DNA from: Microthyrium microscopicum
Taxonomy: Eukaryota > Ascomycota > Dothideomycetes > Microthyriales > Microthyriaceae
Reading direction: 5' to 3'
Assembly (NCBI GenBank): GCA_010405405.1
Contig: MU004234.1
Span: 354,993-418,992, forward strand
DNA: 64,000 bases
The position numbers and the translations under genes were made by a program. Shown here piece after piece: positions 37,801-62,969 of this stretch. How positions within the stretch are numbered: position 1 is the first letter of the stretch; each line of letters starts with the position of its first letter. The notes beneath the pieces are model-generated. The model worked only from the letters and a program-made list of their open reading frames with translations. It was not told the origin of the DNA and did not search any database.

Positions 37801-40800
37801 AAGAGATAAAGGCGCTAGAAGTAGCGGATAGTTAAATCTTACGCATAATATTACGAATTAACTAAATCTATATTAGAGATAACTAGATAAGGTTCTTAAA
37901 GGATTAGGATATAAAAAAGGTAGACAAGTTTACTAACTACTATTCTATCTTACTAATTCTATAGGTTTCTTTAGATATACCTTATAGTCCTAGAAGATAG
38001 AGAATATAACCTTAATTACTTAAAGTATAAAGAGTTTATAAGGCTATAGAAGCAATATTTTTTTACTACTCTTATAACGACTTAGTAGAAGATTAGGTAG
38101 AGGTTAAAAACCTTATTTAGGAGTATATAAAACTAGAATCTATAAAAATAAGAACTAGTAATTACCTTTAGAGTTTACTAAAACGTAAGTAAGAAAGGCT
38201 AACCTAGTAAAGGGCTTTTAGCTAAAGGGATAATATAGTATAGTAGCTAGAAGTAGTTAATCTATAGATAGCCTACTTTATAGAATAGAATTACTTTAAC
38301 TATTACTATAACGCTCTAGTGAAGTATATACTATTAGATAAGATACTTATAAAGTATTTTTATAAATATATAAAGGCTTATTATAACTTAAGTATTATAG
38401 AACTAAGTAATATAGCTAGAGACTTATAAATATTAACTAAAGATATTATAGATATTATTAAGGATTTCTACTTAGGGCTATTCTAGTAGAGAAAGTACTT
38501 ATTAGAAGCTTAAGACGTAATATTAAGTTTTATATTAGAGATAATTAGCAAAAAAATAAGTAAGAGTATAATAGCCCCTATTTTAGTTTAGGAGGTATAA
38601 TATATAATACAAATAATAAGCCTAGGAACCTTGCCTAAGATTAATAGCATAATTATAGAGTTTTATAAAACTTTTCTTCCTACTAAGCATTAACTTGTTA
38701 ATAGAAGTAGATAGAACTTAAAGGACCTTTTAGAGGATAAAGAAGAAGAACTAGATAGCATTCTTACTATTCTAAAATAGGTATTTAACTATATTCTAAG
38801 TACTTATATTCTCCTTCCTAGATAGCTAGAAGGTATACTTATACTCTTATTTAAGAAGAGTTCTAGAATGAAGCTAAAGAACTACTAGCTACTATTAGTT
38901 ATAAATATAGACTATAAGCTATTTACTTATATTATAAAGAGTAGACTTAATTAAGCTCTATTAGATATTATTAGACAATATTAAATAGCCTTCCTATTAG
39001 GAAGACTAATTAATAATAATATTTAGATAGTATAGATGCTTCTTATAAGGTAAAGGTATACTTAAGAATATAACAAAGATAATAATTTAGCTATTTTATT
39101 CCTAGACTAAGAGAAAGCTTATAATTAAGTAGACTATAAATTCTTATAGAAGGCTCTACTAAAGTTTAGCTTTAGTTAGGATTTTATTAATTTATTAATA
39201 GCTTTATATAAGGAAGCTATACTCTTTACCTATATTAATAGGTATAAGAGTAATGCTATCCTAGTTTAGAGTAGAGTAAGATAAGGTAACCCTTTAAGCT
39301 ACCTACTCTTTATAGTTGCTATAGAGGCTCTAGCTTAAACTATTCTACGTAATAAAGATATTAAAAGGATAAATATAGGACTTTAGTTTTCTTTAAAGTT
39401 AAGAATATATATAGATAATACTTAGATAATTATTTAATCCTAATTTAAGGTAGAAACTATACTTACTATGCTTAAAGTATATAGTAACGCTACTAGTACT
39501 AAAGTGAATTAAGAAAAGTTCTATCTTATGCTTTATATAGAGATTAACTTTAAAATATTAAATATAAAGACCCTTAAGGAATTAGAAGCTTATAAATATT
39601 TAGGCATCTTTATTAGCATTAATATTAAGAAAGTAATTATAGACTTCTAAGCTATTATTACTAATAAGATAAGAAAGTCTATAGATATTTAGCTTAAAAA
39701 TTATATATCTCTTAGGGGTAGGATCTTAATTACTAATTTAGTACTAATGTCTATAATTTAGTATAGCGTTTAGTTCCTTAATATCTCTACTAAGAGTTAG
39801 AAGGAGCTAAATAGATAGTACCTAAGAATAATATAGGATAATAAGCACTAAGGATTAATTTAAGCTCTAAGTACTTATAAAGAACTAAAAGATAAAGGCT
39901 TATACCTCTAAGATCTAGAATCTATTATAGACGCTTTAATACTAGCTATAATAACTAGAGTAGATACTTATCTAAAGCTCCTATAAGCTAGTATAACTAA
40001 TACCTTAATTATCTATTATTACACTTAGGCTAGCTAGATCTTTCTTAAGCTACTTACTTACCCTTAGTTCTAATACTATAAAATAAAGGTAATTATAAGG
40101 GATCTATCCTTTAAGCTAAAGCATGTTTAAACTAGATAGTAAGCTCTTTATAGAAGTGCTAAAGATAAACGCTTCTTAGAAAGTAGTATAATAGCTATAG
40201 TAAATATATATAGCGTAGATTATATACTTAATACCTATTTATAGTTTTATCTTTACTACCTCTAACTATAAAGCATAAGACGTTAGAATTTAGTAAAGTT
40301 CTAAGGCTATTAGGCTTATAGGATAAAGTACTTAAGGAATTATTATATCCTAAGAACGCCTAGTAGCCTAGCTTATACTTATTTTAATACTTTAGGCCTC
40401 TCTAGGAAAGAGTATATTAACTTCTAGATAAAGATCTTTACTATAGTTGCTAATCTTTCTCTAAGGTAGTAGTAAGCTCTAAATAGGGAGCTAACTAACT
40501 AGCTTAATAAACGTAAAGTATCTACTCTAAAGGAGAGTAAACTTATGCTATAGGATATATTATAACCTCTATTTTAGGTCTTATTCTTATAGGCATATAA
40601 GGCTATACTTTAGACTTAACTTTATAGAGATAAGTATAATTATACTTTAAAGGTAGGAGATATTAGTAACGCCTATTGCTACTTAACTAGTAAATTACTA
40701 AAATTAGGCAGGATTTAGCGCTTATTAAGAACCTACCTAATAGTCCTTAAGGCCTCTAACCTCTTCTAGAGAATACTCTATAATTAAGTTATTACTAAAA

Positions 40801-41659
40801 TAAAAATAAAGAAATAGACAAAGAATCTAGATAGACTTATATACCTAATTTATAATAAGGACTTATTACTTAAATATATTTAGGTATAATACCTAGTTAT
40901 AAGAGTAGTCTAAAGGTATGTCTATTATATTCTATAGAACTTAAGAGTCTCTAAAGAGAAGAGTATAATATTTAATACTCTTATAGAGTTTATAGCTCTT
41001 AGCCTCTTAGGTCTCTTTAAAAAAGATACTACTTTTAATAGAAGCTAGAGGATAATCTTCTAGCTTATAGCTTAGTCTCTTTAGAAAGTATATTTAAAAT
41101 ATTACTTTAAGAAGAAAGAGAATACCTAGTAGTACTTACTTACTATATCTAACTTTTTCTTAGCTATAATGCGCTAATAGATAATAAAGGAATAAGTAGT
41201 AGCTATATTAGTAAAGTTCCCTAGTTTAATACTAAATCTATAGAACTTTAAAGCCTTATAGCATTAGAAGCTAAAGGATATAAGAGTAACAACTAGACCT
41301 TAATATCTTATAGACGTTTATAAGGACATTAGATTAGGCTATTGCTTAGAATTAAGTAAAGATAAAGAAGAGGAAGGAGCCTCTATCTTAATAGAGAGCT
41401 CCTTAATAGATAACTTAGGGAGCGAAAGCTTAAGCTCTAGCTTATCTTAAAGAATATATATTAGACTTATTAAGATATTAGTAATTAAGAAGTATAATAA
41501 TGGAGTCCTTTTAGATATCTCTTTAGTAAATTTTAAATTTAATAATAGGATAAGCGTAAAGTATAGGTTTAATTCCCTATTATTAATATATAGTTGCCTA
41601 ACGAACTCTTCTAAGATACGCCAGAAGGCTGCTACTAAAACAAAAATGATTTCTTATTA
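34886..41659 (+). mobile_element. Decayed non-LTR retrotransposon (LINE)
   Basis: A 6.8-kb block, almost entirely TpA-rich and full of stops in every frame. Reverse-transcriptase signatures still read through on the plus strand: a 'LDQEKAYNRVDYKFL'-like motif near 39104-39150, a QGxPLS..LF..AIE.LA motif near 39275-39335, a weakened Y-D-x-T catalytic box near 39405-39425 and a YKYLGI-like motif near 39590. Upstream about 2.2 kb should hold the endonuclease, and a first ORF probably starts near 35433; a zinc-ribbon-like tail may lie near 40650-41100. The QGxPLS form points to the L1/Tx1 side rather than typical Tad1, but clade is uncertain. It is a non-functional relic. About 75 bp at each edge keep normal composition. 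Confidence 0.75.
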
Positions 41660-41673
41660 ATTAGTGCGCTATA
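41660..41673 (+). repeat. Right copy of 14-bp direct repeat (probable LINE target duplication)
   Basis: Identical to 34872-34885. It follows an unconverted tail 'actaaaacaaaaatgattt' that could be the 3' end of the LINE. Length fits LINE target duplications. Confidence 0.6.
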
Positions 41674-41774
41674 TAGAAAGATTTTTTAAATTATACCTCT
41701 CTTATATTAATCGTCTCTATATTAATCGCCTTAATGAAATAAGAACTAATATTCTGCAGACAGCACATTTATTT

Positions 41775-42648: not shown

Positions 42649-43276
42649 TCTAAGAGGGACTTCTGCCGTTTATACTACATTAGCCTTAGCTAAAATGTAT
42701 ATTTTACCTTTTTTAACCCCTTCTTTCATAACTTATAATATAATAACTAATACATAATATAGCTTAAAACTTAGGCCTTATAATCTCCTTATTCTAAGCT
42801 ATTTATCTATATTAAAATCGTTTTTGTGCCCTCTCTAGTTATCTTATAATCTCTTATTAAAGTTTAGTATTAAAAAAGTTAACTTTTTTTTAACTTAGTA
42901 TTACTATATAACAAAAGGTTATAGAAAAAAAAGAACGAATTTTATAGATATATTAAGATATAATCTTTCTATAGTAAGAGTTTTAAGATATAAGATTACT
43001 AAATAGACTTAAATATATATATTAAAAACTATTATACTTTTTAAAATAGTTAAGCTAGACCCCCTTTTAAACTATAAAACAGGGAGATTTCTATAGAGTT
43101 CCTTAGTAAATATTAAAGCTTAAAAATTAAACTATATATAGATATGCTTTAAAATTGTAGCCTTTTATAAGAAAATTACTTATAGCTATTCTAGTTGTTA
43201 AGATATTTAATAAATCGTGAAGTAGGATTTTTTCGTTAAGGCTGATATAGTGTAAACGGCGGAAGTGTCTCTCAGG
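42649..43276. mobile_element. Short non-autonomous DNA element with 42-bp terminal inverted repeats
   Basis: The 42 bases at 42649-42690 and the reverse complement of 43235-43276 match at 33 of 42 positions, and 8 of the 9 differences are transitions. The most even core is GCCGTTTAYACTAYAT. The interior of about 540 bp is AT-rich and RIP-like, with no coding frame. This fits a MITE or other internally deleted DNA transposon. A target duplication is not clear: CTCTAA sits outside both ends, which could be a decayed duplication. Superfamily not assigned. Confidence 0.65.
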
Positions 43277-43345
43277 CTCTAATTCAGGGTTAGGGAGCGT
43301 TAGCGACCATTAATAATAAGACGCTAACCTGAATTAGAGCCTGAG
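43271..43345. repeat. 75-bp hairpin (near-perfect inverted repeat)
   Basis: Arms at 43271-43293 and 43324-43345 are inverted copies (CTCAGGCTCTAATTCAGG then TTAG) differing by one extra G, with a loop of about 30 bases that holds a further GCGTTAGCG/CGCTAAC pairing option. It abuts and slightly overlaps the right end of the TIR element and lies about 135 bp before the ankyrin gene start. Confidence 0.75.
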
Positions 43346-43478
43346 CACGCTGAGGTAACCTGAGAGCCAGACAGGCCTCACAACTGTCATAAATTCCAGG
43401 TCTCCGCTTCCAAGGATCGTGTTAATATATTTTGCAATATAGCAACTCAGTAGTTCAGACACCAAGTTCAGTTTTCGA

Positions 43479-44717
43479 ATGGGGAATTGCCTCCGACTTC
43501 CTATCCGGCCATCCGACAATGAGGATATCAAAAGTACGAATGCCGAGATAAACGAGAGCGATATAACAAACACCAGTCGCATTGAACTAGATGAAAGCGA
43601 AACCGCAGCTATAGAGCGTTGGTCACAAGCCGTGGACCTTGCTCTGGAGAAAAAACCGTTCGACAAGCTCTACCGAGAGTTGAAGATTTTCTCTCAAGAT
43701 GTACCAAACATACCCAGTCCACTATTATGGTATCTTCAAATGATCGTGGCAGCACGCTATGCTCTCACTCGGCAATTCACGACCTCGAATAGACTAGCCC
43801 GTAACACAGTCGCAGAGTGGTCTTGGTACCAACAAGATCACCCAGACGCACGCAGCCATATCGACTGGGCCCTTATGGTGATTGCCAGTATGGATGAGAT
43901 TGAAGGCAAAGCCCTTGGCGACTTTGACCGGACAGAGGGGTTTTTCCTTCCAGACACATTCTCATTGCATGTTGAATCAAGAGATAGATTCAAAAGAATT
44001 GACATTACGGAGCAATTTCTGGAAGAAAACCTTCGACTGGCGGCTGAATCACTAGCTTATCTTCGTCAAGGCCACTATCAAAGCTCTGGAGGAACGTGGC
44101 TAAATCCGCCATCATATCAAGCGTATTGGGGACCTGATGGGAAGAAAGGGTTGCGGGTAATGCGAAGAGCCCCAAAGACTGATCCTGTTGCAATCCCGGA
44201 GCCTACAGATCAAGCCTCTTCGATCGTGCCGGTCTCTGCCTCTCGAACTGTACCAGTAATTTCCGAGAGCCGTTGTCGAGAACTCGCAGCATTGCGAGTC
44301 CAACCGGTCCCCAAACAGCTCTATCGTCCAGGAGACCTCACAGAATTGCATATTGCTGCCAGTAAAGGAGATGTCTGGAAGACTGCACGCTTACTAGGCG
44401 GGTTACCTACGACGGAAGGTCAAAGAACATATACGATCGACGTTGAGGATGGCGAAGGTACCAACGCTTTACAATATGCTGCTTGGTTGGTCGAATCCTG
44501 CCTTAATTACTTCAACCCGAAAGGCTAACCGACTCTCAGGTATGGACAGACTGGAACAGTCCAGCTTCTCGTTGAAGCTGGTGCAAGCTTTTTGGCTAGA
44601 TCGGATAGATATCCGGGCGCGACGGCCAGAAGTTGGGCATATACCAAAGGTTTCAAGAACATCGAAGCATACCTCAAAAGAAAGGAGGATGAGTTGGAAG
44701 CATTGCAAGCGGCGTGA
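43479..44717 (+). CDS. Ankyrin protein with acylation-type MGNC start (two exons)
   Basis: Exon 1 is 43479-44485, exon 2 is 44540-44717; 394 residues. The 54-bp intron has a GCTAAC branch site and CTCAG acceptor but an unusual GTTGGT donor. It is the choice that keeps frame and joins 'NALQYAAW' to 'YGQTGTVQLLVEAGA', a proper ankyrin repeat. Residues 1-6 are MGNCLR, so Gly2 could be myristoylated and Cys4 palmitoylated, although position 6 is not Ser/Thr. A helical middle (about 45-200) rich in Trp and Leu is not recognised. Ankyrin repeats start near 'DLTELHIAASKGDVWKTARL' (about 287) and run to a coiled Lys/Glu end. It converges on the larger ankyrin gene 239 bp away. Probably a membrane-tethered adaptor; function unknown. 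Confidence 0.72.
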
Positions 44718-44956: not shown

Positions 44957-46465
44957 CTATATGTAACCTTTCTGTAGCCTGACCGCTGTATGCAGTCTAG
45001 CAAAAAATTCTTTCTTACTTCCAGCTTCCGAGCGCCACAGTATCTTGGATGCCAGTTCCAAAGGAGGCAATGATACCAATTTCATAGACTCTTTGAGACC
45101 CGCAAACTTGTACCGTAGATTGGCTGGCCTACGGCTGTATGTATCAGCCCCTTTGGATAATAGTAATTCGATCGTCGCAATTCCTCGATTCGCTCGCATT
45201 CTAGAATAACATGTTGACATTCTTGCAATTGCAACATGTAAAGGTGACGACCAATGGTTGCGGGCATTGACATCTGCTCCTGCAGCGAGAAGTAGACTTA
45301 AAGTGACACTATCTTGTCGTCGTGCGGCAATGGTCATGAGACAGCTGTCGGAATCGCCTTTGCTATAGGCGTAATTCGTATCGACGCCTAACTTTATCAT
45401 GTGTTGCACAACTTTGTTGCGTCCTCCCTGACACGCGAGGAAGAGTAGGAATTTTTTTGCCTCAACATTTAGATTTGTGCATTGCTCCAGAAGGGTATCA
45501 AAAGATTCTGATAGAACAGGGTTCTTGAAAACGACTGTAAGCTGCCTTTCCAGACGCGAATTGATAGGATTGTCAGACAAGTTTGACAATGACAGCTCAA
45601 GGAGAACAGAAGATTTTTGGTTTATGGCTAATTCGAGGACCCATTGATATCGCGTAGCTAGTCCTGAGGTGGTACCGGTAAGTGGCTTCCAAATTTTAAT
45701 CCAGTGCGGTGAATGTGCAGGATCTGCGAGTACTTTTGCCAAGTCTTCTATGCTGTCCGAAGGTAGTGCTACTCCAAATTTGAGTAAAAGAAAGGATATT
45801 TGGGCATTCTTGGACCGCATTGCGTATTGTAGCGCTGTGGAAGCAAAGGGATGAGCGGCCGCACCGTACGTCAGCAACAGCGCAATAGTGTCGAAAGAGT
45901 TGGAACTCGAAACGGCGTTTAGAAGAGGACCTTTGACGACAGTCGAGGCGTCGCTCGCGAAAGAAGGGTGCACGTCCTTATGCATAATCATACGTGTTGG
46001 ATCCGCACCAGTTTCTAAAAGGTGTTTGATCTCCGACAAATTCGGCATACCCCATGTGCTTCTCAGGCTGAGAAGCGTGTCCAGTTCATTTCGAGTTTGC
46101 TCTGAGACTTCAGCTCGTCTCTCTTGTGCCTTCGCAATTAGATCTGCATCTCTTTTGATATCCTGATGGACCCCTGTAGAGTTGTCTTCTGTCGTGGCAG
46201 GAATTGGTGCATCTGTCTCCATAGTGGATGTGAGAGGCAATAAGTCATTCACTGTCAGTGTAGTAAAGTGCTGGTGTTCAAACGCCGCCGTCCTCGATTC
46301 AGCATACTCTCTGGTAACATCATGCCGTTCTGATATAGAATCTGGTTTAGCATGTGCTGTAGAATTCGTTACCTCTTCATTATGCCCAGAAACATCTTCG
46401 TCAGGGCGGGTTTTCCTTTGACTAGCAGCGCTTAACACCAATTTGGGATGCGTTCTATGACTATC
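44957..46465 (-). pseudogene. Ankyrin/STAND-N-type gene, 3' part (interrupted by LTR element)
   Basis: This is the C-terminal portion (about 500 residues) of a host gene whose 5' part lies at 62318-62969. It opens with a charged Ser/Thr-rich linker ('HRTHPKLVLSAASQRKTRPD') and then ankyrin repeats: 'LSEIKHLLETGADPTR', 'FDTIALLLTYGAAAHPFAS', 'LLFLACQGGRNKVVQHMIKL', 'VTLSLLLAAGADVNARNHW' and 'ATIELLLSKGADTYSRR'. No stop interrupts this side. The frame abuts the LTR boundary at 46465 through the 5-bp duplication CTATC and is the same frame as the other side. As it stands the gene is split by 15.9 kb and should not make its full product; a truncated ankyrin protein from this half is possible. Confidence 0.8.
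46461..46465. repeat. Left 5-bp target duplication of the outer Gypsy element
   Basis: CTATC, repeated at 62318-62322 directly outside the other LTR. Five bases is the Gypsy norm. Confidence 0.8.
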
Positions 46466-46621
46466 TGTCACGGGAACCAAACCCTAACCCTAAGCACGAA
46501 CCACATGGCCCGTGCCCCTAGAGGACATATCCTCCACCAGAGTAGCAGTAGAACAAACCTTAAAGTTTATTTCTTAATTATATTACTATACTACTACTAT
46601 ATTAGCTCTATAACTATAATA
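46466..46621 (+). repeat. 5' LTR of outer Gypsy element
   Basis: 156 bp, starting TGTCA. Its outer half keeps normal composition while its inner half is AT-shifted. It holds a CCCTAACCCTAA telomere-like doublet at 46482-46493. Confidence 0.85.
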
Positions 46622-47591
46622 TAAATAAACTTCTACTATAATTATATAAGTAAGTTAAAATTTTACTTTTATAAAAAAATTTTTATCTTACGCGTTTAAT
46701 AGTAAGAAGACTAGACTTATAGCTCTCTAAGTATATAGACTACTTACTTATTCCTTATTTACTAGAAAGCTAGTATAATTAAAATCTAATAGACCTAAAA
46801 CTATAAATCCTAATCTTAATACCTTATTACTAGTACTAAGACTTTATAAAGCCTACGCTAGTAGAGGCTAGTCCTACTAATATTATTTACCTCTTACTTT
46901 AGAGTAAATAATTTAATAATTTCTTACTATATACTCTATATTATCCTTATAATATAGCAAACTATTATCTTATAGTTATTTATAAGATATTTATAATAGT
47001 CTATATACTTTACTACTACTAGACTTAACTTAGCTAGTTATAGTAAATATTTACGATCTAGATTTATAGTAGCAATATAAGACTATAATAGAGATTAAAA
47101 AAAAGAAGAAGAAGTAAGCGTTATAGAAAGCTCTAAAGAAAAAGAATTACCTATTAGTAGAAGGTTTATAAGATAATTTATAAGCTCTAATAAATAACTT
47201 ATTATAGTTAGAAATAGAGCTACTATATAGGGGTAGAGATACTTAAGAAACCTTATAGAATTTAGAGTAAGAGTAAGAAGGTAGTAAGTACTATAAGCGC
47301 TTACTATATATAGAAGATTCTAATATTAAAGATAAATTAAAATTACTAGAGAGTAAGGATAGCTTAGAAAAAGAGTAAGAATAAGGATATAAAAAGTACT
47401 ATTAGCGTAATTTAGGTCTTTACTATATTAGCCTTAGCTAAGAAGAAGGTATTTTTGTTAGCTACAAAATTAATAGTAATATTTACTTAGTTTATCTAAG
47501 TTTAAAAAAAGATTTAATATAAGATATTAAGGAGGCGCTAAAATACTAGTAAGAAATTTTATTACGAACCCTTATGGACTTACTATAGAGG

Positions 47592-47879
47592 CATAGGTAT
47601 TTTACTACCTCCTTACTTACTCTACTCTTATAGTACGCTATAGGAAGGCTCTTTACTAGTAAACTACTAGGTTAATATAAATAGTGCCTACCCTTTACTA
47701 TAATAAGATAAAGCTAAAATAGAGCTAAGAATAAAAAGGAGAGGTAGCTTTACTAAAGAGAAGATAGAAAGGAGTATAAGTAAAGAGATAAACTTAATCT
47801 CTTAGAAGATTAAGTATTAGTCTTATCTTAATACTAGTTCTTAAAATCTATTTTCCTTACTTTAAATTATCCTTTATAA
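47592..47879 (+). repeat. Left LTR of inner Gypsy element
   Basis: 288 bp, colinear over its whole length with 56045-56332. The differences seen are mostly transitions. Ends are set by where the likeness stops, so they may be off by a few bases. Confidence 0.7.
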
Positions 47880-50800
47880 TTCTAATACTTTTTAATATAC
47901 TATATAGTAATAAGCCTAATAGATTCTTATAATAATAAGGAGTATAAGGAACTTTAATAAAGGCTAAAATAGAGATAAAAATAAAGATAAAGACCTAAAT
48001 AATAACTTAGATAACAACTTAGATAATAACTTAAGTTAATATAATAGCCTACTACTACTAATAGACCTAGAAGCTACTTTAGCTACCCTTTATATAGTAA
48101 TAGCTTAAATTAATAAATAAGAATAGATACGTATAGCTAAAACGTAATAGCTTCGTAATAAGATTATAGCCTTATTATAAACCTTATAATAGAATCCTTC
48201 TTCTCCTTTTTAACTAAAAGAACTAAAACTTACTAACCTTATAGTTCTTTAATATAAGACTTAATAAGAACTTATTAACTAGACTATAGGTATAGAAAAC
48301 GTTTTCTATTTAGTACTCTCTTAATTTACTATATAAGAAAGCTATATTAAATAGGCTAGCTAGTTTATAAGTCCTAATCTATAAACTTAATAGAACCTAA
48401 AGAAGAAGAAGATTAAGCTACTAACTTAGACTTAGGAGAAGTTTATAGAATAGCTTTAATATTAATATGCTTACTTTACTATAGCTAAACTTTTAGTTAC
48501 TAAGAAACTTAAAGAAGCTAAGTAGCGCTCTACCTAGACTTCTATAAAGTTTAATACTTACTTAAACTTATTAGAGACCTAACTTAGTATTAATATAACT
48601 TATAAAGAAAATAAATAATACTTAAAATTCTTTACTAAGCTAACCCTAAAACTATAGAAATAGATTAAATTAATAAAGTATATCCTAACTACTAGACTTA
48701 ATATAGTTAATACTACTAAATGCTTTTAGTAGATTACTTATAAGTACTTATAAAAAGATCTATTAGGTAACGTTAATTCTTAACCCCCCTAATTAAATTA
48801 TAATCTATAAGGTAGCTAAGGTAAATAATAAGGGCGTAAAAGTTATATAGAATATATGCTATTAACTTACTTATTAGTAAGTATAAAGCCTAAAAAAGAT
48901 AGTAAAACGTATAAGAGAATTACCTATTATAATTATAATTTATTTAGATATTATATAAATAAGTATAATAAGCCTCTAAGAGGCCCTTAGGCTACTTAAG
49001 GATAAGAAAGATTCTTAAGATATAAAGGCTAGAGAAGGAACCTAAATACTATCTCTTTCTTATTAAAATCTAAAACTAACCTAAGAAAAAAGTAAGTATC
49101 GTAAGAATTAAGAACCCTATCTTTATAATACTAGATTAAACTATAGGAGTATAGATTTAGATAATAGCTAATCTTTCTCTTACTATAGAAAACTAATTTA
49201 TAAACGTTTTCTTAAATACTAGTAGTTAAATTAATATTATTAATAAATAACTTACGTAACGCTATAGCCTTAAGAAAGTAACTATAGAAAGTATCTAAGC
49301 TATAAATTTTACTAATAATATAATAAAAAGTAAATATTATAATATATATTAGCTACGTTTTTATTATAAGGACTCTTCTAGTATCTATAAGAATATTAAA
49401 TACTATTTCTTTTCTTTTAATTAGACTAAATATATTTACTCTATAGTATAAGAAACTCCTTTATAAGAGAAATATAATATTTTTATCTACTTAGAGTAGA
49501 AGAAGTAGCTATTTAGGAAAGAGAAGCTAAAATATAAAATTATAGATTAAAGTATATTTAAGGAAGGGCTATAAGAATATAGTAAGGTATTTAAACTAAC
49601 TATAAAATTTAATAAGTACCTATACTTAAATAATAAGAAAGTAGAGATCTCTAGTATTAGCTTTAAGCTAAGCTTATAAGTAAATATTAATCTAGAGAAT
49701 AGACTACTATAAGAGCTATAAGATTTAGCCTCTTAAGTTAAGGCTAGGGATAAGAATAAACTTATCTCTAAAGGTATTAAATATACTATTAAGATAACTA
49801 TAGACCCTTCTTTTAGACCTATTTATAACTTATTAGTAACGAAACTTAAGGCACTATAAGAATACCTTAACTTAGTCCTTATAAAAGGCTAAATTTAGGA
49901 ATTAACTAGCTTAGCTAAAGTACTTATATTCTTTATACCTAAAAAGGATAAAGAATTATAACTTTACGTAAATTACTACCTACTTAATATAGTTACTATT
50001 AAGAACTATTACCTACTTCCTTTAATAAGCAAGATATTAGATTAACTTAGTAGAGTAGTATACTATACTAAAATAAACCTTAAGGATGCCTATACTTAAA
50101 TACTTGTTAGAGAATAAAATTAATAAAAGATAGTATTCTATACTTAGTATAGATACTATAAATACTAAATTATACTTTTTAGACTTACTAATACTTTAAC
50201 TATATTCTAAGCCTATATTTATAAAGCATTAGTAAGACTCTTAGATATTATCTATATTATTTATCTTAATAATATTCTTATTTTCTCTAAAACGTATAAA
50301 GATTACGTTTATAACGTATATACTATATTAGAATACTTACTAGCTACTAAGCTTTATACTAATTCTAAGAAGTATTAATTTTTTACTAATAAGGTAGAAT
50401 TCCTTAGTTTTATAGTCTCTATAAAAGGAGTAAAAATAAATTTTAGTTAAGTTAAGTTTATTACAAAGTAGCTAAAACTTAAGAGCTATAATAATATATA
50501 AGTATTTATTAGCTTTATAAATTTCTACTATAGGTTTATTAAAGGCTACTTAAAAGTAGTAAAATTCTTAACTAACTTATTTAAAAATATATAATTTAGA
50601 AGGAAATATAAACCTTTTATCTAGATAAAAAAAGTAGCGTAAGTATTTTATATGCTCTACGTAGCTTTTAATAAAGCTTCTATCCTTATATATTTTAACC
50701 TAAAGAAAAGGATTTACCTTAAGACTAATACGTCCTAGTATACTATTATAAGTATCCTTTCCTAGCTATAGAAAGATAACTAATAGTACCTTATTACTTT

Positions 50801-53299
50801 CTAATTAAGGAAATTAATAAAGGCTAAGATTAACTATTAAACCTATAATTAGGAGCTCCTTACTATTATTAAGGCTATAAAATATTAATAATATTACCTT
50901 AAGGGTAGTTACTACCTTATTAAGATTCTAACTAACTATAATAACCTAGTAGGGTTTATAAAATAAAAGAACTTAAATAGGCGCTAAGTATAATAAGTAA
51001 TTATATTAGTAAAGTATAACTTCTATATTAAGTATTAAAGTAAAAAGATAAATCTTATAGATATACTATTAAGATAACTTAACTATACTACTATAGAATA
51101 AGCTATAAATAACTTACTACTTATTTTTTAGAAGAAACTAGGACTCTTCTTAAAGGAGAAATAGAAAAAGCTAATTTTTATAAATAGTCTTAAGCTAATA
51201 AAGTAACTTACTAATAAGACGCTAATAATAAATAAATATAACCTTATAAATAAGATATCTAATATTAAGTATTACCTAGTACTAAACGTACTAAGGATAA
51301 GTAAGATACTTTATAAGTAAATAAGTAGCTAAAATGCTATAAGTAAAGAGAGTAAAGACTTCCTTAGCTTTTAAAAAGTAGTTACTATTTTAGACTATAT
51401 TTATATCTTAAGAACTATAGTAAAAAAAATAATATAAGACCTATATATTATAAATAGAGAAGCTCTAGATACGCTAATTATCTTAGTCTAAGTTATTTAA
51501 GATAGTAATAAAAAACTTAGACGTATCTAAGAAGTACTTAATACGTAGCTAAAGTCTAAAGAGACTTAATAGCTAAAGAATACTTAGTTAGTCTAAAGAG
51601 ACTACCTTTACTATAAAAGCTAACTATATATACCTTATAAGCTTACTTTAAGAGATAAACTCTTAGTAATATACTATAATAATCTACTAGTAAAATACTT
51701 AAGGATTTAAGGTACTATAAAACTACTTTATAAATAGTTTTACTAGCTAAAAATAAAAAAGAATATATAAGTATATATAAAGACTTATCTAGTCTACTAA
51801 AGAATAAAAGTAAGATAGTATTAACTCTATAGTAAGTTAAAGTCTCTACCTTAACTAATCTAACTATAGTAAAAAATTATTATAGACTTTATTATAAGTT
51901 TATTACTTTATAAATATAAACTTATAATATTTAATACTATACTAGTAATTATAAATTAATATATTAAATAAATAAGGTATATTAAAACTATAAAAGATAT
52001 AATTACTAAAAAGCTAGTAGAACTTATAGAAAAAAGAGTTTTCTTAAAAAAAGACCTACTAGTAGGTATTATATTAAATAAAGGATCTATCTTTATAAAT
52101 AAATTTTAAACTAAACTATACTAGGCAAGAAAGATAAAATATAAGTTATCTATAGCCTAATATTTATAAACTAATAGCTAGACTAAGTAATAAAACTTAG
52201 TACTAAAATATTACCTATAAGCCTTTACTATTAAAAACTAGATAAACTAGTTAAGCCTCCTATCTATAGTATAATAAATAATAAATACGTCTTATAATAA
52301 GATACTTAACTATATTCTAAATATAACTAAAATAGGATATAAATTAACCCTCTTAGTAGACTTCTTTATAAACCCTAAAGATAGGCTTAAAGAAGAGGAA
52401 AGTAAAGTAGTAATAGTAAAGTAAAGAGTAGTAAAAATAGAATAAGACTAAGAAAAGATAGTAGAACGCTAAGAAAAAGTAGTAAAATACTAAGCTAAGT
52501 TTTATAATAAGAAGTATACTCTAATATTATTTTATATAGAAAATAAGGTCCTACTATTAATAGAAAATATTAAACTTAAACTACTAAGTAAAAAGCTAGC
52601 TCTTTACTATATAGAACTATTTAGTATCTAAGACGTAGTTAGAGAATAAGCTTACTAACTAAACCTCTTAATAAGCTACTAAATCTATAATGTCTTTTAT
52701 ATATTTAAACTTAAGCTATATTATTAAAGAGAAGGTTAAAAAGAACTAAAGCTCTTTATAGCTATTAAGCTAAAAGATAAAGAGAAATAAGAGATAAAAG
52801 CTATCTTAGATAAAAGGAAATAGAAAGAAAAAGTTAAATACTTTATTTATTAGTAAAGCTATTCCTTAATTTATAATTCTTAAGAATAAGAAGAAGACTA
52901 TAAGAACGTATAAGACTTAATTAAGGTTTTTAAAGAAGCTAGTAGACTTAAGCTTACTATTATAAAGAAAAGAAAAAGAGAAGAATAAAACTATAAAGAA
53001 AAGCATTATAAGAAAGAGAAGATTTTTATATACTTTTTATTTACTATAGAAAAGTAACTAATTAGTAGAATAAAAAATAAAAAACTAAAAATAGAAATAG
53101 TAAAAATTATAGCTAAGTAAACTACTAGTAAGACATAAATAAAACCTAAATAAAATTAAGGAGTTTTATAAGAAACTAGTAGGCTAGTACTATAAAAAAA
53201 AAGGACTCTTTTTTATAAAGATAAAAGAAGCAAATTACTAGTAAATATAATAAAAAATAAGAATTTTTCCTAAATGCTATAACTATAAATAGTAAGTTA

Positions 53300-56044
53300 A
53301 TAAAAAGGCTAGTTTTAAAAGATATTAAGACTAGTAACCTATGCCTAAAGAAATAAATAAATATAGTATTTACGTAACTAAAATATAACTTAATTACTAG
53401 ACTCTAACTTTATATATTAAGACGCTATAACTTTAAAAATAGGCATTAAATACTATTAGTTACTCTAAGACTACTAGGAAAAGAGTACGTAATAAATATA
53501 GCTAAAGTAATTAGCGTACTATTAGTAAATAAATAAGTAAGTAAAGAAATATTATAAGTTATAAGCACTATAGGCGTAGAAAGAGAATAAAAATAGCTAG
53601 GATTAGTATTAATAGAATTAATACTACTATCTAAGTTATAGTAAGTAGTTACTCTACTAGTAGTATAACGCTACTAGAATTAGTAAAAAGAATAAGCTAT
53701 TTTATTAGTATATTAAGCCTAAGCCTAGGTAGCTAAAGAAGAGCTATAAAAGGGCAATATAGTCTCTTTATTAAACTACTTAGTTTATATATTACTTACC
53801 TTCTTATCCTTAACTTCCTCTATAGTAGGTAGATATACTATAAAGTATAAGGTACTAACGTTTAGGATAAATTTAAGAAGTACGTAAGCTCTAAATATAG
53901 TAATATCCTCTCTATTTTAGACTAAAGGAGATAAGAAGTAAACGTAAAAATAATTACTCTACGTAGATAGACTACTAGTAAGTAAAGATAATAAAGAGTT
54001 ATTAGTAGTAAAACCTAGCTCTTAGTAAGAATTAAGTAGTTTAAAGCTTTCTAAGTAGATTCCTATAAGCTAAATAGGTACTTAAACCTACGACTAAGTA
54101 TAGGATATAAGTAAAAGATAATTCTAAGAATAATAGTTAGTAAGAATATAACTTATAAATAAAACGTAAAAGAACCTATATTAAGATACTAAATATTATT
54201 AGTCTATTCTAGTATATCTCTAATATAACTAAGTATAACGTAAATATAGAATACTATATCTAAGGCTATAAAATAGCTATAGCCTCCTAGGTAACCCTCT
54301 ATATAATACTAAGCTATAATAAAAGTATTATAAGCTTATTAACGACGCGTTAACTCTTTATTATAGATATAGTATATATTACTACGCTAATAAAACTTAA
54401 TAAAAAAACCTAAAAGCGTAATAACTATAATAAAACTTATAAAGTTAAGAAACGTAAGGTAGATACGTAAGTAGATTAAGTTATTTATAATCTTATTAAA
54501 GACTATAAGTATTTAAATAAAGGTTAGTACGTAAGCTATATCTAAGTTACTAATAAGATACTTATAATATTATAATAGTACTTCTAGTAAGTATAGTAAT
54601 AGTATTTAGTAAAGTTATCCTTATAACTATATATAGTACTTTATAGGATATAGCTACTATTAAGATAATAATAAACTATATTATTAATAATATTCTATAA
54701 ATATTAGAAGTAATATAAGAAAAGAAGTAAAGTAAGTATAACTTAAGAGCAAGATATAATCTAAGTAACATTCTATAAAGATATAAGTTAGTAAAAGAAT
54801 TAGGTAAGTTGCTTATAATATATTTACTATAAAGGCCTACTATTAAGTAGTCTAGGCTATAAGACCTAAATCTATATTTCCTAGCTTACTAAGTAAGTTA
54901 TCTAACTTAGACTCTTTATTATCTAAAAATAACGTATAGGGTAGCGTAAGAGTACTTTAGTAAGTAGTCTACTTCTTAATTATAAGATAAGTAATAGATA
55001 GTTATAAAAGCTTTAGTAATAAAGTATCTTTATAATAATATTTTTTATTAGCCTAAGAGGCACGTAAAGTATAGGTTAGCTATAAAGTAGGGTTAGTAAT
55101 TAAGTTAATTATAGTAGTATTAAGAAGTACTTAGAGTAAGTAATAAAAGCTATTAATACTATATTAAGCTAAATAAGAAATAAATAATAGATTAGTACTA
55201 GTAATAATATAGCTTAAGGGTAATAAGACATAAGGGGTTAATAAGCCTCCCTAAGACTTTAAGAGGGCTGCTTAGTTAGCAAGTTAGACTAAGTTATAAT
55301 TACGTAACTTAAGCCTCTTAAGGACGCGCTAAGGACCCTATGAAGTATAAAGAGTAATAGAACGCTAGTAAGTTATATGCTTAGAAAGTTAGTTACTATA
55401 TTATTAAGATTATTAAAACTCCTAAAAGGTATAATATATTTCTAAAGAATAATTGCCTAAGTTAAGATTAACTAATTACTTACTCTCTTATGAATTACTA
55501 TTATTAATAAAGTCGTTATTATTAAAGGAATTAATGTTAATAAGGTCCTAATAGGACGAACTATTACTATGTAAATTACTAAAATAATAATAAGAAGATA
55601 TTATAAGAGAATAATTAAAACGCTATTAAAATGTACGTTAAAAAGCTAAAAATATTAAAGATAGGTAAAGAGAGTATAAATAAAGTATAGAAAAAGTATA
55701 AGTTAAATTAAGGACTTTAAAGAAACATAGTTTTAAAAACTTTTAAGATTTTAGGTAGGTAATATACTTATAAATTACTTATAAGAAGAAAAGATTATAA
55801 TATTAAGAAGATAGAGTATTATAGTTTTAAAATATTTTAGTATTATATATATGCATAATACTATTATAATAAATAGAGTTATTATTACCTATATAGTAGG
55901 TACTATAGTAACTCTAGAGGCAAGAATACTATAGATTAAGACTATATTTACTAAAAGAGGAAGGCATAATAGCTAAGTTATTAAAGGTAACTTCCTTTAG
56001 AAGAGAAAACTCTATTATAAACTTTTATAAACTTATTATAAAGA
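53300..56044. other. Unassigned 2.7-kb segment of the inner Gypsy element
   Basis: Lies between the pol region and the right LTR of the inner element. It is AT-shifted like the rest but no retroelement domain could be read on either strand. It could be an extra ORF, a non-coding tail or a third, older insertion. Confidence 0.4.
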
Positions 56045-56332
56045 TGTAGGTATCTTACTATCTCCTTACTTACTCTACTTTTATAATACGCTATAAGAAG
56101 GCTCTTTACTAATAAACTACTAAGTTAACGTAGATAGTATTTATCCTCTACTATAATAAGACGAAGCTAAAATAGAGCTAAGGATAAGAAGAAAAGATAA
56201 CTTTACTAAAGAGGAAACAGAGAAGAGCATAAGTAAAGAGATAGACTTAATCTCTTAGAAGATTAAGTATTAGTCTTATCTTAATACTAGTTCTTAGAAT
56301 CTATTTCCCTTGCTTTAAACTATCCTTTATAA
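56045..56332 (+). repeat. Right LTR of inner Gypsy element
   Basis: Colinear partner of 47592-47879; same length. Gag-like sequence of the outer element resumes directly after it. Confidence 0.7.
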
Positions 56333-59300
56333 ATTTATTATAAAGTAGTACGTTATAATTTAGAGCAAGATATTATAAAGGATTATCTAGTAATAATAAA
56401 AGTAAATAATATATAAAATCTAAAGCTTTATAAGTAAGAATATGTAGATCTATAGGTCTAAGTAAAGAAATATTAGAATATAAAGCACGCTTATTATAAT
56501 TTAGTAAAAGAGTATACTAAAGAAGTAGACTAGTTATCTACGTAAGTTAATACTCTATATAAATAATTAGCTACTCTTAAGACGTAAAGTTCTAGTTAAG
56601 TATAAGAGAAATAGAAGGAAAAGGCTAACAAAATTAATTCTAATATAGAAGTTCTAATTTACTTATTATTATGTTTATAAAAGCTTAATTACGCTAATCT
56701 ATATATATCTAGCGCTTATACCTTAGCTATACCTAGTATTATTCTATTAGAAGTAAAAGTATTCCTAAAGCATAAATAGCTTAGTAATATCTTAGAATTT
56801 AGTAATAAAGAAGATAATAACTATAAAGTATAGAAAGACTAAGTTCTTTAAAAGTTCTAGATAGATAAAGCTTAGTTTCCTACTAACTAGGATAAGCTAG
56901 ATTACTTAGTAGACTATATTAAGAACAACGTATAAAAAATATTTCTATAGGAATTATAGCTATCCTCTCTATGCTACTTTATAACTCTAAATTAGCTATA
57001 GGCTACTTTTAATAAAGAGTTTTAGCAAAGTAAAACTAATTATAATTTCAAAGCTTTATAGACTCTATATTTAAATAGCTACGCTTAGAAAGATAAAAAG
57101 ACTATTATATAGTACTAGTAATAACTCTATATACTTACCTAAGACGTATCTAGTATAGATAATATTAGCCTAATTAATTATTTCCTATTAAGTCTATAGT
57201 AGAGCATCTATTACGTTATTAATAATAGTATTTATTATAAAGGTTTAAATAGACTCTTTTACTAAGCTAAGGTTATAGAAGTAACTCTAAATACGAAATA
57301 TACTAAAAAAGCAACGTAGGAAAAGCTCTTAAAAAAGTTATCTAGTAATAGGTTAAAATTATAAGATAATAATAATAAAGATAGCAAAGATAATAAAGGT
57401 AATATAAAGAAGAACTCCTTAAAAAATAAGGATTTCTTAAAATTACATAAGAAGGAAATACGCAAGCTTACTTAAAAGAATAATTTATACTTTAAATATA
57501 CTAAACCTAATTATTATACTAACGATAAGAAGCTACCCTATAAGAGTAAAGAGTCTCTTTCCTACGAAGCCTTTAAGAAGGCAGTTATAAACTATAAGCT
57601 AAAGAATTTTACTACTTACGTTAAGGACATAGAGAATAAATATAACTTAAAGAATTCTTTAAACTAGAAAGCTAGGTAGCTAGTCTTTAGCCTAATAGCC
57701 TAACTTAACTACTAAGGAACCTATTTATAAGAATTTTACTATTTACTCTTATAGATAAAAAGACGTTATAGATATTAAAATAGTAAGACTTCTCTTATTA
57801 TATTTATAACTAGGAGAGAAAGTTCGTTAAGAGCTAGATATTATTAAATACTAGTATATCTTATATTTTTATTAATAAGAAGCTTATTTATTAACTAAAA
57901 CTAGATAAAGTGAAATTATAAATACTAAAAGTAATAAGAGTTATAAATAAGAATTATAGTAAGCTAGAGTTTATAGCTTATATACTACTATTAATTAAAG
58001 ACTATTATAATAAAGCCTAGGCTTATATTACTCTTATTACTTACTTTAATATTATTATAGGTATAAAATAGCTAAAAGAGTATAATTCGTACCTAGATTT
58101 TAAGAATAAGATAATAACTTTTAATTCTAACTATTATATAGATTATTATATCTAAGAGGGTTATTTATTTATCTATTATTATAATAGTAAAGTAGTTCGC
58201 CTAGATTTACTTAATTTAGAACTATATAATATTAAAATATACTCTATAATAGCTATAGCTACTCTCCTATACTAAAGTACCTACTCTATAGCTTTTACTA
58301 CTATAGAAGATATTTATAACTAAGTTATTAACGTAACTAACTAGTTAAAAGAAGTAGATATATTTAACTAACTAGAAGAGGTAGATATATATACTACTAT
58401 AGTAGATTATAATAAGTTCTTTAAGAAGTTAAAAAAGGAATATCCTACTATAAAGTATCTCTAGACTTAGATTCTTTATTATCTAAGTAACCTTATAAGT
58501 CTATAGAACCTTTAAGAAGTATAGAAGGTACTACCCTATTACCTAAGAGTAGATTATAAAATCTACTTAGAAGATAGAGTAAAGCTACTATCTTCTAAAG
58601 CTTAGGAAATATTACTATAATAGATAAAAGCTATTAAAGTGTATATTAATAATATAATTAAGAAAAAGTATATTTATCTAAGTATATTAGAATATAGCTT
58701 ACTACTAGTTATAGTAAGTAAGCTAAGAAGAAATATTTATGTCTATATAGATTATTAAGTACTAAATAACCTTATAATTAAAAATTATAACGCTCTGCCT
58801 TTAATAAGTAAGATATTTAATCTAGTAGTAAAGGTAAGATATTATACTAAGCTTAACGTTATTATTATATTTAATAAGATTTAAGTTACTAAAGGATATA
58901 AAAAAAAGACTATATTTTTAATAAGATTTAGGTTATTTAAGTACTTAATTATACCTATAAAGCTTACTAACGTACTAGTAACTTTTTAGAAATATATTAA
59001 TAGTATTTTATACGACTTATTAAATATATATTATATAGCTTATATTAATAACGTTCTAATTTATAGTAATATGCTAGAAGAATATAAGCGCTATATTTAC
59101 TAGGTCTATAAGAAGCTCTAGTAAGTAGAGCTCTACTTAGATATTAATAAGTATAAGTTTACTATCTAGTAATTAAAATATCTTAGAATTATTCTTTTAC
59201 CTAATAGAATTAAAATAGATATAAAGAAAGTTAATATAATTATTAATATACTACTACCTTAATCTACTAAAAAAGTTTATTATTTCTTAGGTATAGGTAA

Positions 59301-61992
59301 TTTCTATTATTAGTTTATAAAAGGGTATTTAGTAATTATAGTACTACTAGTTAACTTAACTATAAGTAGTATAAAGAAATTTATTTTTCTTTAGAAGTTA
59401 GATAGCGTTAAGCAAAAGAGTTTTAATAAATTAAAGAAAATATTTATAATAGTGCCTATCTTAAAATATTTTAATCTAGACTTTAAAACTTAGGTTTATT
59501 TTAATACCTTAGATTTTATAACTAGCGCTATACTATCTTAGAAGCATAATAATTAGCTCTACTTAGTAGTATTCCTCTCTAAAAAGATATTATTAGTAAA
59601 AACGAATTATAAAATATATAATAAAGAATTACTTACTATAATTCACGTATTTAAGGAATAGAACCTAGAGTTATTAGGAATAAATAACCTAATTAAGGTC
59701 GTTATAAACTATAAGAACCTTAAATAGTTTATAATATTAAAATGCCTAAATTAGTAATAAGCCTAGTAAGCTAAGTTTTTATCTAAGTTTAACTTTAAAA
59801 TCTTATATACCTTAGGCGTATAGAATAAAGTAGTAGATATACTATCTAAGCCGCTAAGTAATATACTAAAAGAGGAAGATATTTAGTAGACTTAAATAAT
59901 ATAATAGATCCTAAGAGCTTATTATTTTAATAAGAATCTATATTAAGACATAAGATGTACGAAAGAACTAGCTAAAATAGTATTAGATAACTAGAAGATA
60001 AATATCCTAAACTTAGCTAAAATAGTTTATAAAGAGATTATTTATAGAAATAAGGACGCTAGTATTAGAACTAAGGATAAGATATGAACTAGAATTCCTA
60101 TAGACGACTAAAAGGCTAAAAGTATTAAGAATAGTTATACTAAAGTTAAGAAAGGCTTAGTAGAATTAGATCTTAAGAATTATTAAAGTATTCTTAAGCT
60201 AGTAAAGAATAATTACTTAAAAGATAAAGAACTCTAGAGCCTTATTATAATACAAAAGTAAAAAATATAGTATCTATTATTAGAACTATTTAAGAAAGGC
60301 TATTACCTAGAGATATTAGATTTATTAATTTAGAATAAGCTCTTATACGTAAAAGATTAGCTATTTATTTCTACTAGTTATATGTATTAAGAAGTATTAA
60401 AAGTATCTTATAATTTATTAATAGGTAGCTATATAAGTTATAACGTCCTATATAAGTATATTACTTAGTTATATTATTAGCCTTATATTATAAAGGATAT
60501 TATAAATTATATAGTAAAGTATATTAAGTATAAAAGAATTAAGCTATTTAAAATAACGAAGTAGAGCTTACTTTACTAACTACTAATACCTATAAGATAC
60601 TAGGTAGATATTAGTATAGATTTTATTACTTTACTACTAAAGTATTATTATACTAGCTAAGTATATAAATATATAATAGTTATAGTAAACTAGCTAAGTA
60701 AGTTAAGATAGTATATACTATTAGATAGCTTAGAAATTAAAGTAGTTATTTAAGGGTTTATAGATTATATATAGCGTTTAGAAGGCTATTTAGATATAAT
60801 AGTTTCTAATAGAAGCTCTTAGTTTATTTCTAAGGTTTAGTAGCACTTATATACCTAAATTAGAACTAAGCTAAAGCTTTCTATATTATTCTACCTAGAG
60901 ACTAATAGCTAGACTAAAATTATAAATATAGGGTTAAAGTAGTACTTATAGGCTTATATTAATTATTAGTAGAATAATTAGGTAGACTAGCTACTAATTA
61001 CTAAATTTAAAGCTAATTCTAATATTAATAAATTAACTAAGCTAGTACTATTCTTAGCTATAAAAGGGTATTTTCTAAAGAATAGTATTAAAGCTATTCT
61101 TAAGGTTATAGAAGCTCTATATAGAGCTCTATACTTAAAAGTTAAGTAAGTAGATAAAATAGCTAAGTATATTTACTAATTAAAAGACTTTCTATATTAG
61201 TAGCTAGCTTAGACCTAAGAGAAGGTTATAAAAGTAGTAAATAAGAAGTAAATACTAGTAGAAGTCTTAAAAGTAGAAGACTAAGTAATATTAAATATAC
61301 GTAATATTACTATAACTTATCCTACTTAGTCTCTAGACTTAAAAAATATAAGTCCTTTTTAAGTAATCTAAGTAATTAATAATATAGCTTATAAGTTAAA
61401 GCTTCCTTTATATTTTAATATATTCCTAATATTCTACCCTTAGCTTTTATATAGAGTAAATCCTTCTATAAAAGAGCTAGATTAGAGAAGTACTTAAGCT
61501 ATTAAAGGTTATAAACGTTAAGGTACTTAAGTTAAGAAAGTTATTAATTTAAAGCTTAATAAAAAGTAAAAAGACTTAATTATAAATAAGAAGCTATACT
61601 TATTTTATAAAGCTAAGTATAAAGAATAGAATAGTTAGAATAAAAACCTAGTATAAAAACTATAATATTTCTTCCTAGATTATCTAGATAAAGTTAATAA
61701 GTTCTATAAAGATAATTTAAAAAAGCCTAGACTATATAAGTAATATTAAATATAGGACGATAGTAAAGAGTTACTTTAGCTACTAAGAGTATAAATTAAT
61801 TATTTAACTCTTAAAGACTAAGACTAAAGACTAAGGCTAGCACTACTAAGATAGACATCTTCTAGTTTAATAGAGAGGATACGCTAAGTAACTAGCTATT
61901 AGAGTTAGTTATTAAGAACGATAATTTATCCTCGTAAGAGGCTATAGACTCATTATCGCTATAGTGTCTTAAAGCCTACCTAGCTCACGTCT

Positions 61993-62060
61993 AGAGGTTA
62001 AGAGTTTAGAGAGGTTAAGAGTTTAGAGAGGTTAAGAGTTTAGAGAGGTTAAGAGTTTAG
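61993..62060 (+). repeat. 17-bp tandem repeat, four units, near the outer 3' LTR
   Basis: Four identical units of AGAGGTTAAGAGTTTAG followed by a partial fifth, about 100 bp before the 3' LTR of the outer element. Purine-rich, and unlike its AT-shifted surroundings the units are perfectly matched. Confidence 0.8.
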
Positions 62061-62161
62061 AGAGGTCAAAAGGGATTTAGAAGGGATTAGAAAGGTTATT
62101 TATCTTGTTTTAGATTAGAAGAGCTTCACCAAAGCTCACGTATGATAAGAAGAGGGGATTG

Positions 62162-62317
62162 TGTCATGGGAACTAAACCCTAACCCTAAGTACGAACCAT
62201 ATAGCCTATACCCCTAGAGGACATATCCTCTACTAGAGTAGCAGTAGAACAAACCTTAAAGTTTGTTTCTTAATCATATCACCATACTGCTACCACATTA
62301 GCTCCGTGACCGTGACA
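62162..62317 (+). repeat. 3' LTR of outer Gypsy element
   Basis: 156 bp, ending TGACA. Mirror image of the 5' LTR in decay: the inner half is AT-shifted and the outer half keeps normal composition. Confidence 0.85.
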
Positions 62318-62322
62318 CTATC
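62318..62322. repeat. Right 5-bp target duplication of the outer Gypsy element
   Basis: CTATC, matching 46461-46465. Confidence 0.8.
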
Positions 62323-62969
62323 CTCCTGATCGCTATTACTCATGTTTGAGACTTCATCGTCTTGAAGTTGCAACAACTCTTCCAGCCCACTACTTTTACG
62401 TCGACTAAAATCATCCTCATCCTTTGGAGATGGCACTTCAGTTAGGTCGATAAGATCGACAAAATCCGATTCGTGGTGAAGATCTTCAGGCAATAGAGTA
62501 CTGCAAGTGTGAGCTTCATGGTCGATATACACCTATAAGAAACATACTTTGATAACACGCCAGAAGCAATTTTCAGTCCAGTGAGGCTAGAGTGAAGTTG
62601 CTTGAACTCCATATCCCCATATATCGAAGAATTCGAATCGAACAAATCATTTCGTGTCTCAAAGTCGGCAATCGTCTGTCTTATATGGCCGAGGACTAGT
62701 TGGCATGCTTTCAGAAGCGTGTACGTCTGTTTGGCCAACCGCGTTGGAACATCCTGTCCCGTAGACTTGAGATCATGCGTTAATGTTTGCAAGAACAGGT
62801 GCAACGAGACCACTTCTTTGAGAACCGCGTTAATATCTCTTCTGGATTCCGGAACGACACAAGCAAATGTAAAAAGTGAGGTTTGAATGCTTTGAACGGC
62901 CTCGACAATTCCAGAGGCCTCGATCGACAGCCCAACAGAAGTCAAGTCTGGCTCGCCCGAGGAAGCCAT
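62318..62969 (-). pseudogene. Ankyrin/STAND-N-type gene, 5' part (interrupted by LTR element)
   Basis: Exon 1 is 62969-62548; a 47-bp intron (GTATGT...TTGCAG) follows; exon 2 starts at 62500 and runs into the LTR insertion. The start ACAACATGGC is good. The first 100 residues, 'VGLSIEASGIVEAVQSIQTS' then 'DINAVLKEVVSLHLFLQTL', resemble the helical fungal N-terminal domain of STAND proteins. An acidic linker follows ('VPSPKDEDDFSRRKSSGLEE'). Exon 2 meets the 3' part at 44957-46465 in the same frame; counting one target duplication, the uninterrupted gene would have been 702 codons. No NACHT ATPase is present, so N-domain and ankyrins are joined directly. Divergent from the DnaJ gene. Confidence 0.75.

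Follow-up and report, generated by a model that had tools for sequence, protein, structure and literature searches.

The window analysed here is a 64,000-nucleotide stretch of the Microthyrium microscopicum genome (C5:354993-418992; searches of the organism's own genome covered 36.9 Mb in 20 contigs) in which two open minus-strand coding regions face each other across a long insertion bounded by LTRs. We asked whether these regions are the halves of a single gene, what separated them, how long ago, and whether selection has kept them open since. Our results indicate that an outer element very probably broke one gene, received an inner element in turn and was RIP-mutated together with it, sparing the gene halves; what remains is most likely a recent pseudogene.

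A reading frame continuous on both sides of the insertion

The gene runs on the minus strand from an ATG at 62969 to a stop codon at 44957 (both coordinates exact) and comprises the following parts:

62548-62969, minus strand: exon 1, 422 nt (140 codons plus 2 nt), from ATG 62969 through an open frame to a phase-2 donor
62501-62547, minus strand: predicted intron, 47 nt, GTATGT...CAG, phase 2, predicted from sequence and frame
62323-62500, minus strand: part of exon 2 upstream of the insertion, 178 nt, open frame
44957-46465, minus strand: C half, 1,509 nt (502 codons and a stop, one CTATC copy counted in), a linker and ankyrin repeats, with the first in-frame ATG at residue 82

The coding total (422 + 178 + 1,509 = 2,109 nt) divides by three, the junction falls on a codon boundary, and neither half contains an internal stop or any further lesion. 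An earlier note on this DNA had described a host frame continuous on both sides, with good exon-intron structure and a length divisible by three once a single CTATC copy is counted; all of this holds.

In a six-frame comparison of five coding stretches, the gene's frame alone was free of stops in all five and scored highest in four, the exception being exon 1 (+0.106 bits per codon, versus +0.118 for one antisense frame). Exon 2 scored +0.329, the best of its six frames and a value reached by none of 5,000 shuffles. Codons 1–81 of the C half scored weakly as coding sequence (+0.042, equalled by 1,262 of 5,000 shuffles); their openness was matched by 36 of 5,000 shuffles. Overlapping 420-nt windows taken from three other stretches of the same DNA were open in 0 of 3,832 cases.

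As it now stands, the reading frame is interrupted, as in a pseudogene. The N piece would give a product of 210 residues (200 gene-derived, 10 contributed by the target copy and the LTR), ending at a stop at 62290-62292, and the C piece, beginning at its own residue 82, would encode 421. A database record of a predicted protein (P0001) is exactly this 421-residue form. An uninterrupted allele would possess an ATG seven codons upstream of the junction, so that P0001 fits the split allele; it is a weak sign, depending as it does on the gene caller's choice. Downstream, an intact-looking plus-strand frame at 43443-44528, with no significant Pfam family, is convergent with the C half, and an inverted repeat of about 22 bp, recognized by eye around CTCAGGCTCTAATTCAGG (43271-43345), borders an AT-rich stretch.

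Two nested LTR elements

The interrupting sequence had been described in the earlier note as a Gypsy element. An LTR element does split the gene, but there are actually two, one nested in the other:

46466-62317, plus strand: outer Gypsy-like LTR element, 15,852 bp with the nested element and about 7.1 kb without it
46466-46621, plus strand: outer 5' LTR, 156 bp
62162-62317, plus strand: outer 3' LTR, 156 bp
46461-46465 (left) and 62318-62322 (right), unstranded: target duplication CTATC, exact, 5 bp
47560-56331, plus strand: inner Gypsy-like LTR element, 8,772 bp
47560-47878 and 56013-56331, plus strand: inner LTRs, 319 bp each
47555-47559 and 56332-56336, unstranded: target duplication AATTT, exact, 5 bp

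The outer element interrupts exon 2 and lies antisense to the gene. Its target duplication, CTATC, means that the two parts of the gene were contiguous before the insertion. An 8.77-kb element lies inside one of about 7.1 kb, and therefore the gene was hit first and the nesting came second. The outer LTR has seven matches genome-wide, the two in the window counted in, and on contig C10 the outer element has a sister copy, un-nested, 7.04 kb long and flanked by its own target duplication (GTAGG). The inner LTR has 26 matches, among which 11 pairs (the window's pair included) are spaced 8.27–8.45 kb apart. Two LTR pairs with exact 5-bp duplications, both of LTR families found elsewhere in the genome, go beyond chance. 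Two inner-family LTR matches on C12 (at 1235227 and 1251241) lie 16 kb apart and perhaps mark a second nest. The outer LTR also carries AAACCCTAACCCTAAG, corresponding to two telomere-like units, at 46479-46494 and likewise in the 3' copy.

Both elements retain plus-strand coding remnants, with reverse transcriptase followed by RNase H between LTR pairs with short duplications. The RNase H remnants (RT_RNaseH, RT_RNaseH_2) exceed the Pfam cut-off in both elements; the RVT_1 remnants (E=1.8e-6 and 1.2e-5) are both below it. An integrase downstream of RNase H is the order that separates Gypsy from Copia elements, and no integrase family was recovered in the six pieces searched downstream of RNase H (three frames per element, X at stops). 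The elements otherwise resemble the RIP-mutated Ty3/Gypsy elements of filamentous ascomycetes in their LTR pairs, 5-bp duplications, C-to-T wreckage, nesting and order of reverse transcriptase and RNase H; they show no difference of kind, the sub-threshold reverse transcriptase and the unrecovered integrase aside.

RIP-type mutation and the age of the insertion

Internal parts of the insert have TpA/ApT ratios of 1.75–1.85, versus 0.75 in the C half and 0.61 in the N half. CpA and TpG together are near zero within the insert (48 in the inner element, versus 1,889 TpA) and normal in both gene halves. The element is thus as heavily wrecked by RIP-type mutation, and the halves as clean, as the earlier note had reported. 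The outer LTRs differ at 24 of 156 sites and the inner LTRs at 45 of 319, every difference being a transition and neither pair having indels. All 24 outer differences lie in scripted RIP contexts, compared to 13 of the 45 inner differences in CpA or CpG context, the rest being transitions in other contexts; this may be because CpA is nearly exhausted in the inner element. C-to-T transitions and CpA depletion are confined to repeats, as expected of RIP targets. The genome contains six matches to the DNA methyltransferase family PF00145; none is assigned as RID, and one (L035) matches a DNA methyltransferase chain of fungal length (9baq). Taken with the RIP-like pattern and the short predicted intron, this match would point to a filamentous ascomycete. 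From the mutation pattern we infer that RIP was the mutating agent. A further strongly RIP-like stretch adjoins the locus at 35000-41740 (GC 0.27); by eye it resembles a non-LTR element, and a 900-nt piece of it had no Pfam family.

The RIP signal fades 100–200 bp inside the outer element. In 100-bp bins, CpA and TpG together number 13, 0, 0, 0, 1 and 0 inward from the left edge and 13, 9, 2, 3, 2 and 0 inward from the right edge, with 8–20 (left) and 12–17 (right) per bin outward. The same rim is visible in the LTR differences. In the window, the 3' LTR carries the T or A at the first 10 differences and the 5' LTR does so at the remaining 14; the C10 pair switches once after 6 differences, with 18 following, and a third pair on C19, whose flanks do not match, also switches once (1 of 29 differences out of order). 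The outer rim is therefore spared in all three LTR pairs examined. Across these pairs (46466-46621/62162-62317 in the window; L043, L008 and L012), 35–120 bp at each end of the outer element keep C or G. Leakage of RIP into single-copy DNA is known elsewhere (PMC9453070); none was seen in the flanks here.

The order of events can be read from this structure. A Gypsy-like retrotransposon of about 7.1 kb integrated antisense into exon 2, duplicating CTATC, and a second, multicopy Gypsy-like element then integrated into the first, duplicating AATTT. C-to-T changes of the RIP kind riddled both elements but left untouched the rim of the outer one and the halves of the single-copy gene.

The earlier note had read youth or selection into the contrast between the wrecked element and the clean halves. 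That argument fails, because RIP targets repeats and fades inside the outer element, which is itself enough to leave the halves clean; under RIP, a wrecked element with clean flanks is no clock. Dating by LTR identity was also rejected, every difference within either pair being a transition and hence a RIP product. Transversions are not RIP products, and their counts can therefore be used for age. There are none in the outer LTR pair (0/156 sites) or the inner pair (0/319; 0/475 together). Alignment of the window's outer element with the C10 copy over 7,009 sites (1,087 + 5,922) gave 673 transitions, 21 transversions (0.3%) and 8 gap runs. If all 21 transversions arose on the window's lineage, and if non-RIP transitions are twice as numerous as transversions, the divergence accumulated after the insertion is no more than about 0.009 per site, and half this value if the transversions are shared by both lineages. 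The insertion accordingly looks young, as the earlier note had proposed, although on grounds other than its own.

For a neutral gene at a divergence of 0.005 to 0.01, the probability of no nonsense change is 0.72 to 0.51, and that of no lesion at all is 0.25 to 0.06 (assuming indels at one-tenth of substitutions). The clean halves are compatible with a young neutral insertion, somewhat lucky at the upper age bound, and selection is not needed to account for the intact frames.

These estimates bear directly on two alternatives. One is gene fission, in which selection maintains two working products, a 210-residue STAND-N-type protein and a 421-residue ankyrin protein. Both halves are indeed open and the 421-residue form is present in the database (as a predicted protein), but the age bound makes intact frames unsurprising without selection, and the C piece would be deprived of exon 1, exon 2 and their upstream region; we regard fission as improbable. 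It is equally improbable that the N domain has been freed from the ankyrin part with RIP sealing the element between two selected halves. The second alternative is an old insertion, with the halves, or a rejoined product from which the insert is spliced out, maintained by selection. The 2,109 nt without a lesion would suit such a history; the absence of transversions and indels from both LTR pairs and the low transversion count against the sister copy speak against it, and rejoining would require the splicing of a 15.9-kb intron, far above usual fungal intron sizes. We consider an old insertion very unlikely.

The encoded protein and its relatives

The C half contains ankyrin repeats (PF00023 and PF12796) above the Pfam cut-off. 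Exon 1 has no Pfam family and is absent from the 11 PF17111 matches in the organism's own genome, but it matches one PF17111 gene (L003) at E=5.1e-5 and three further own-genome sequences weakly (E 0.14 to 0.31). In hhalign, exon 1 aligned to four own-genome relatives (L003, L041, L042 and L044, chosen because they match exon 1) with a probability of 96.1, compared with at most 1.4 in 100 shuffles. Predicted structures were too weak to use: that of the N half has four helices, a pLDDT of 57.6 and no PDB match at E<=0.001, and that of the C half a pLDDT of 45.8. The N half appears to be a helical domain of STAND-N type, though a divergent one, the C half is an ankyrin domain, and the original protein was most likely about 702 residues long, with a STAND-N-type domain, a linker and ankyrin repeats. 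Pfam searches detected no NB domain (NACHT or NB-ARC) in either half, and thus the split gene is not an NLR; the earlier label of 'STAND-N/ankyrin' stands for the ankyrin repeats, 'STAND' itself being too strong.

The predicted intron is shared with relatives. A phase-2 donor occurs 404–473 nt after the ATG in eight of nine other STAND-N loci (422 in the window), with L025 showing none by the pattern used; this count leaves out L026, L032, L042 and L044, and L042 and L044 are stop-free through that place. L042 (on C6) combines a PF17111-like N domain and ankyrin repeats above the cut-off in a single 658-residue frame, with no intron at the donor position. L041 has a phase-2 donor at 413 nt and a sub-threshold ankyrin match. 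The PF17111 matches of L041 and L042 are both below the Pfam cut-off. These two genes resemble the split gene in their N domain, linker and ankyrin part, differing from it in the sequence corresponding to the C half, which has no match in L041, L042 or L044 and at E<=0.001 matches only itself in the genome. L044 and L003 had no ankyrin repeats in the frames scanned. On the same strand, beyond the window and about 12 kb upstream of the split locus, lies L041 (C5:428500-435500), a STAND-N and ankyrin-like gene.

A protein search with the C half scored 7,994 candidates, of which at least 120 matched at E<=0.001. One is P0001, encoded by the window itself; each of the remaining 119 is no more than 44% identical, across 69% of the query or less, and carries ankyrin families. 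Residues 1-330 of the C half matched P0001 alone among 7,990 scored candidates, and the N half matched nothing at E<=1 among 636. The searches required shared five-residue words, and two of the three scored a capped list of candidates, so that distant relatives may have escaped them. No outside homologue of either half having emerged from these searches, the one-gene reading is drawn entirely from the organism's own genome, where the continuous frame, a phase-2 intron as in relatives and the architecture of L042 make it most likely, in agreement with the earlier note, that the two parts were once one gene. That they never were, two unrelated frames having received the element between them or at an edge, is scarcely credible. 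No outside homologue joins them, and codons 1–81 of the C half have a weak coding score. Against this, the target duplication proves their contiguity, the frame stays open to either side of the junction and the 81 codons past it lack a start codon, comparable openness was never met in the 420-nt windows sampled from three other stretches, and L042 has the same architecture.

Most likely, then, the locus is a recent pseudogene whose original protein was lineage-specific, its function probably lost with the break. A literature search made without the species name returned nothing recognizable as describing it. A close parallel is copy C of Ecp11-1 in Cladosporium fulvum (PMC9453070), likewise a coding sequence into which a transposable element has inserted in a genome with active RIP. 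In that case RIP has mutated the gene as well and the insert is LINE-like, in contrast to the clean halves and two nested LTR elements found here. Fungal NLRs include proteins with a HeLo-like or STAND-N-type N domain and C-terminal ankyrin repeats (PMC12258605). The split gene would have similar domain types, without the NB domain.

The process itself is ordinary (insertion, nesting, RIP), and the locus is a tidy case of gene breakage. It captures gene loss in a fungus with active RIP, and the target site, the succession of the two insertions and the spared gene can all still be made out. It indicates that RIP fading within a repeat can leave a host exon clean, and that transversions can replace the clean-flank contrast as a clock. 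Were fission true, it would have released from its ankyrin part an N domain of a type that serves cell-death signalling in fungi. Should an allele lacking the insertion still be segregating, this site would offer a natural presence/absence polymorphism.
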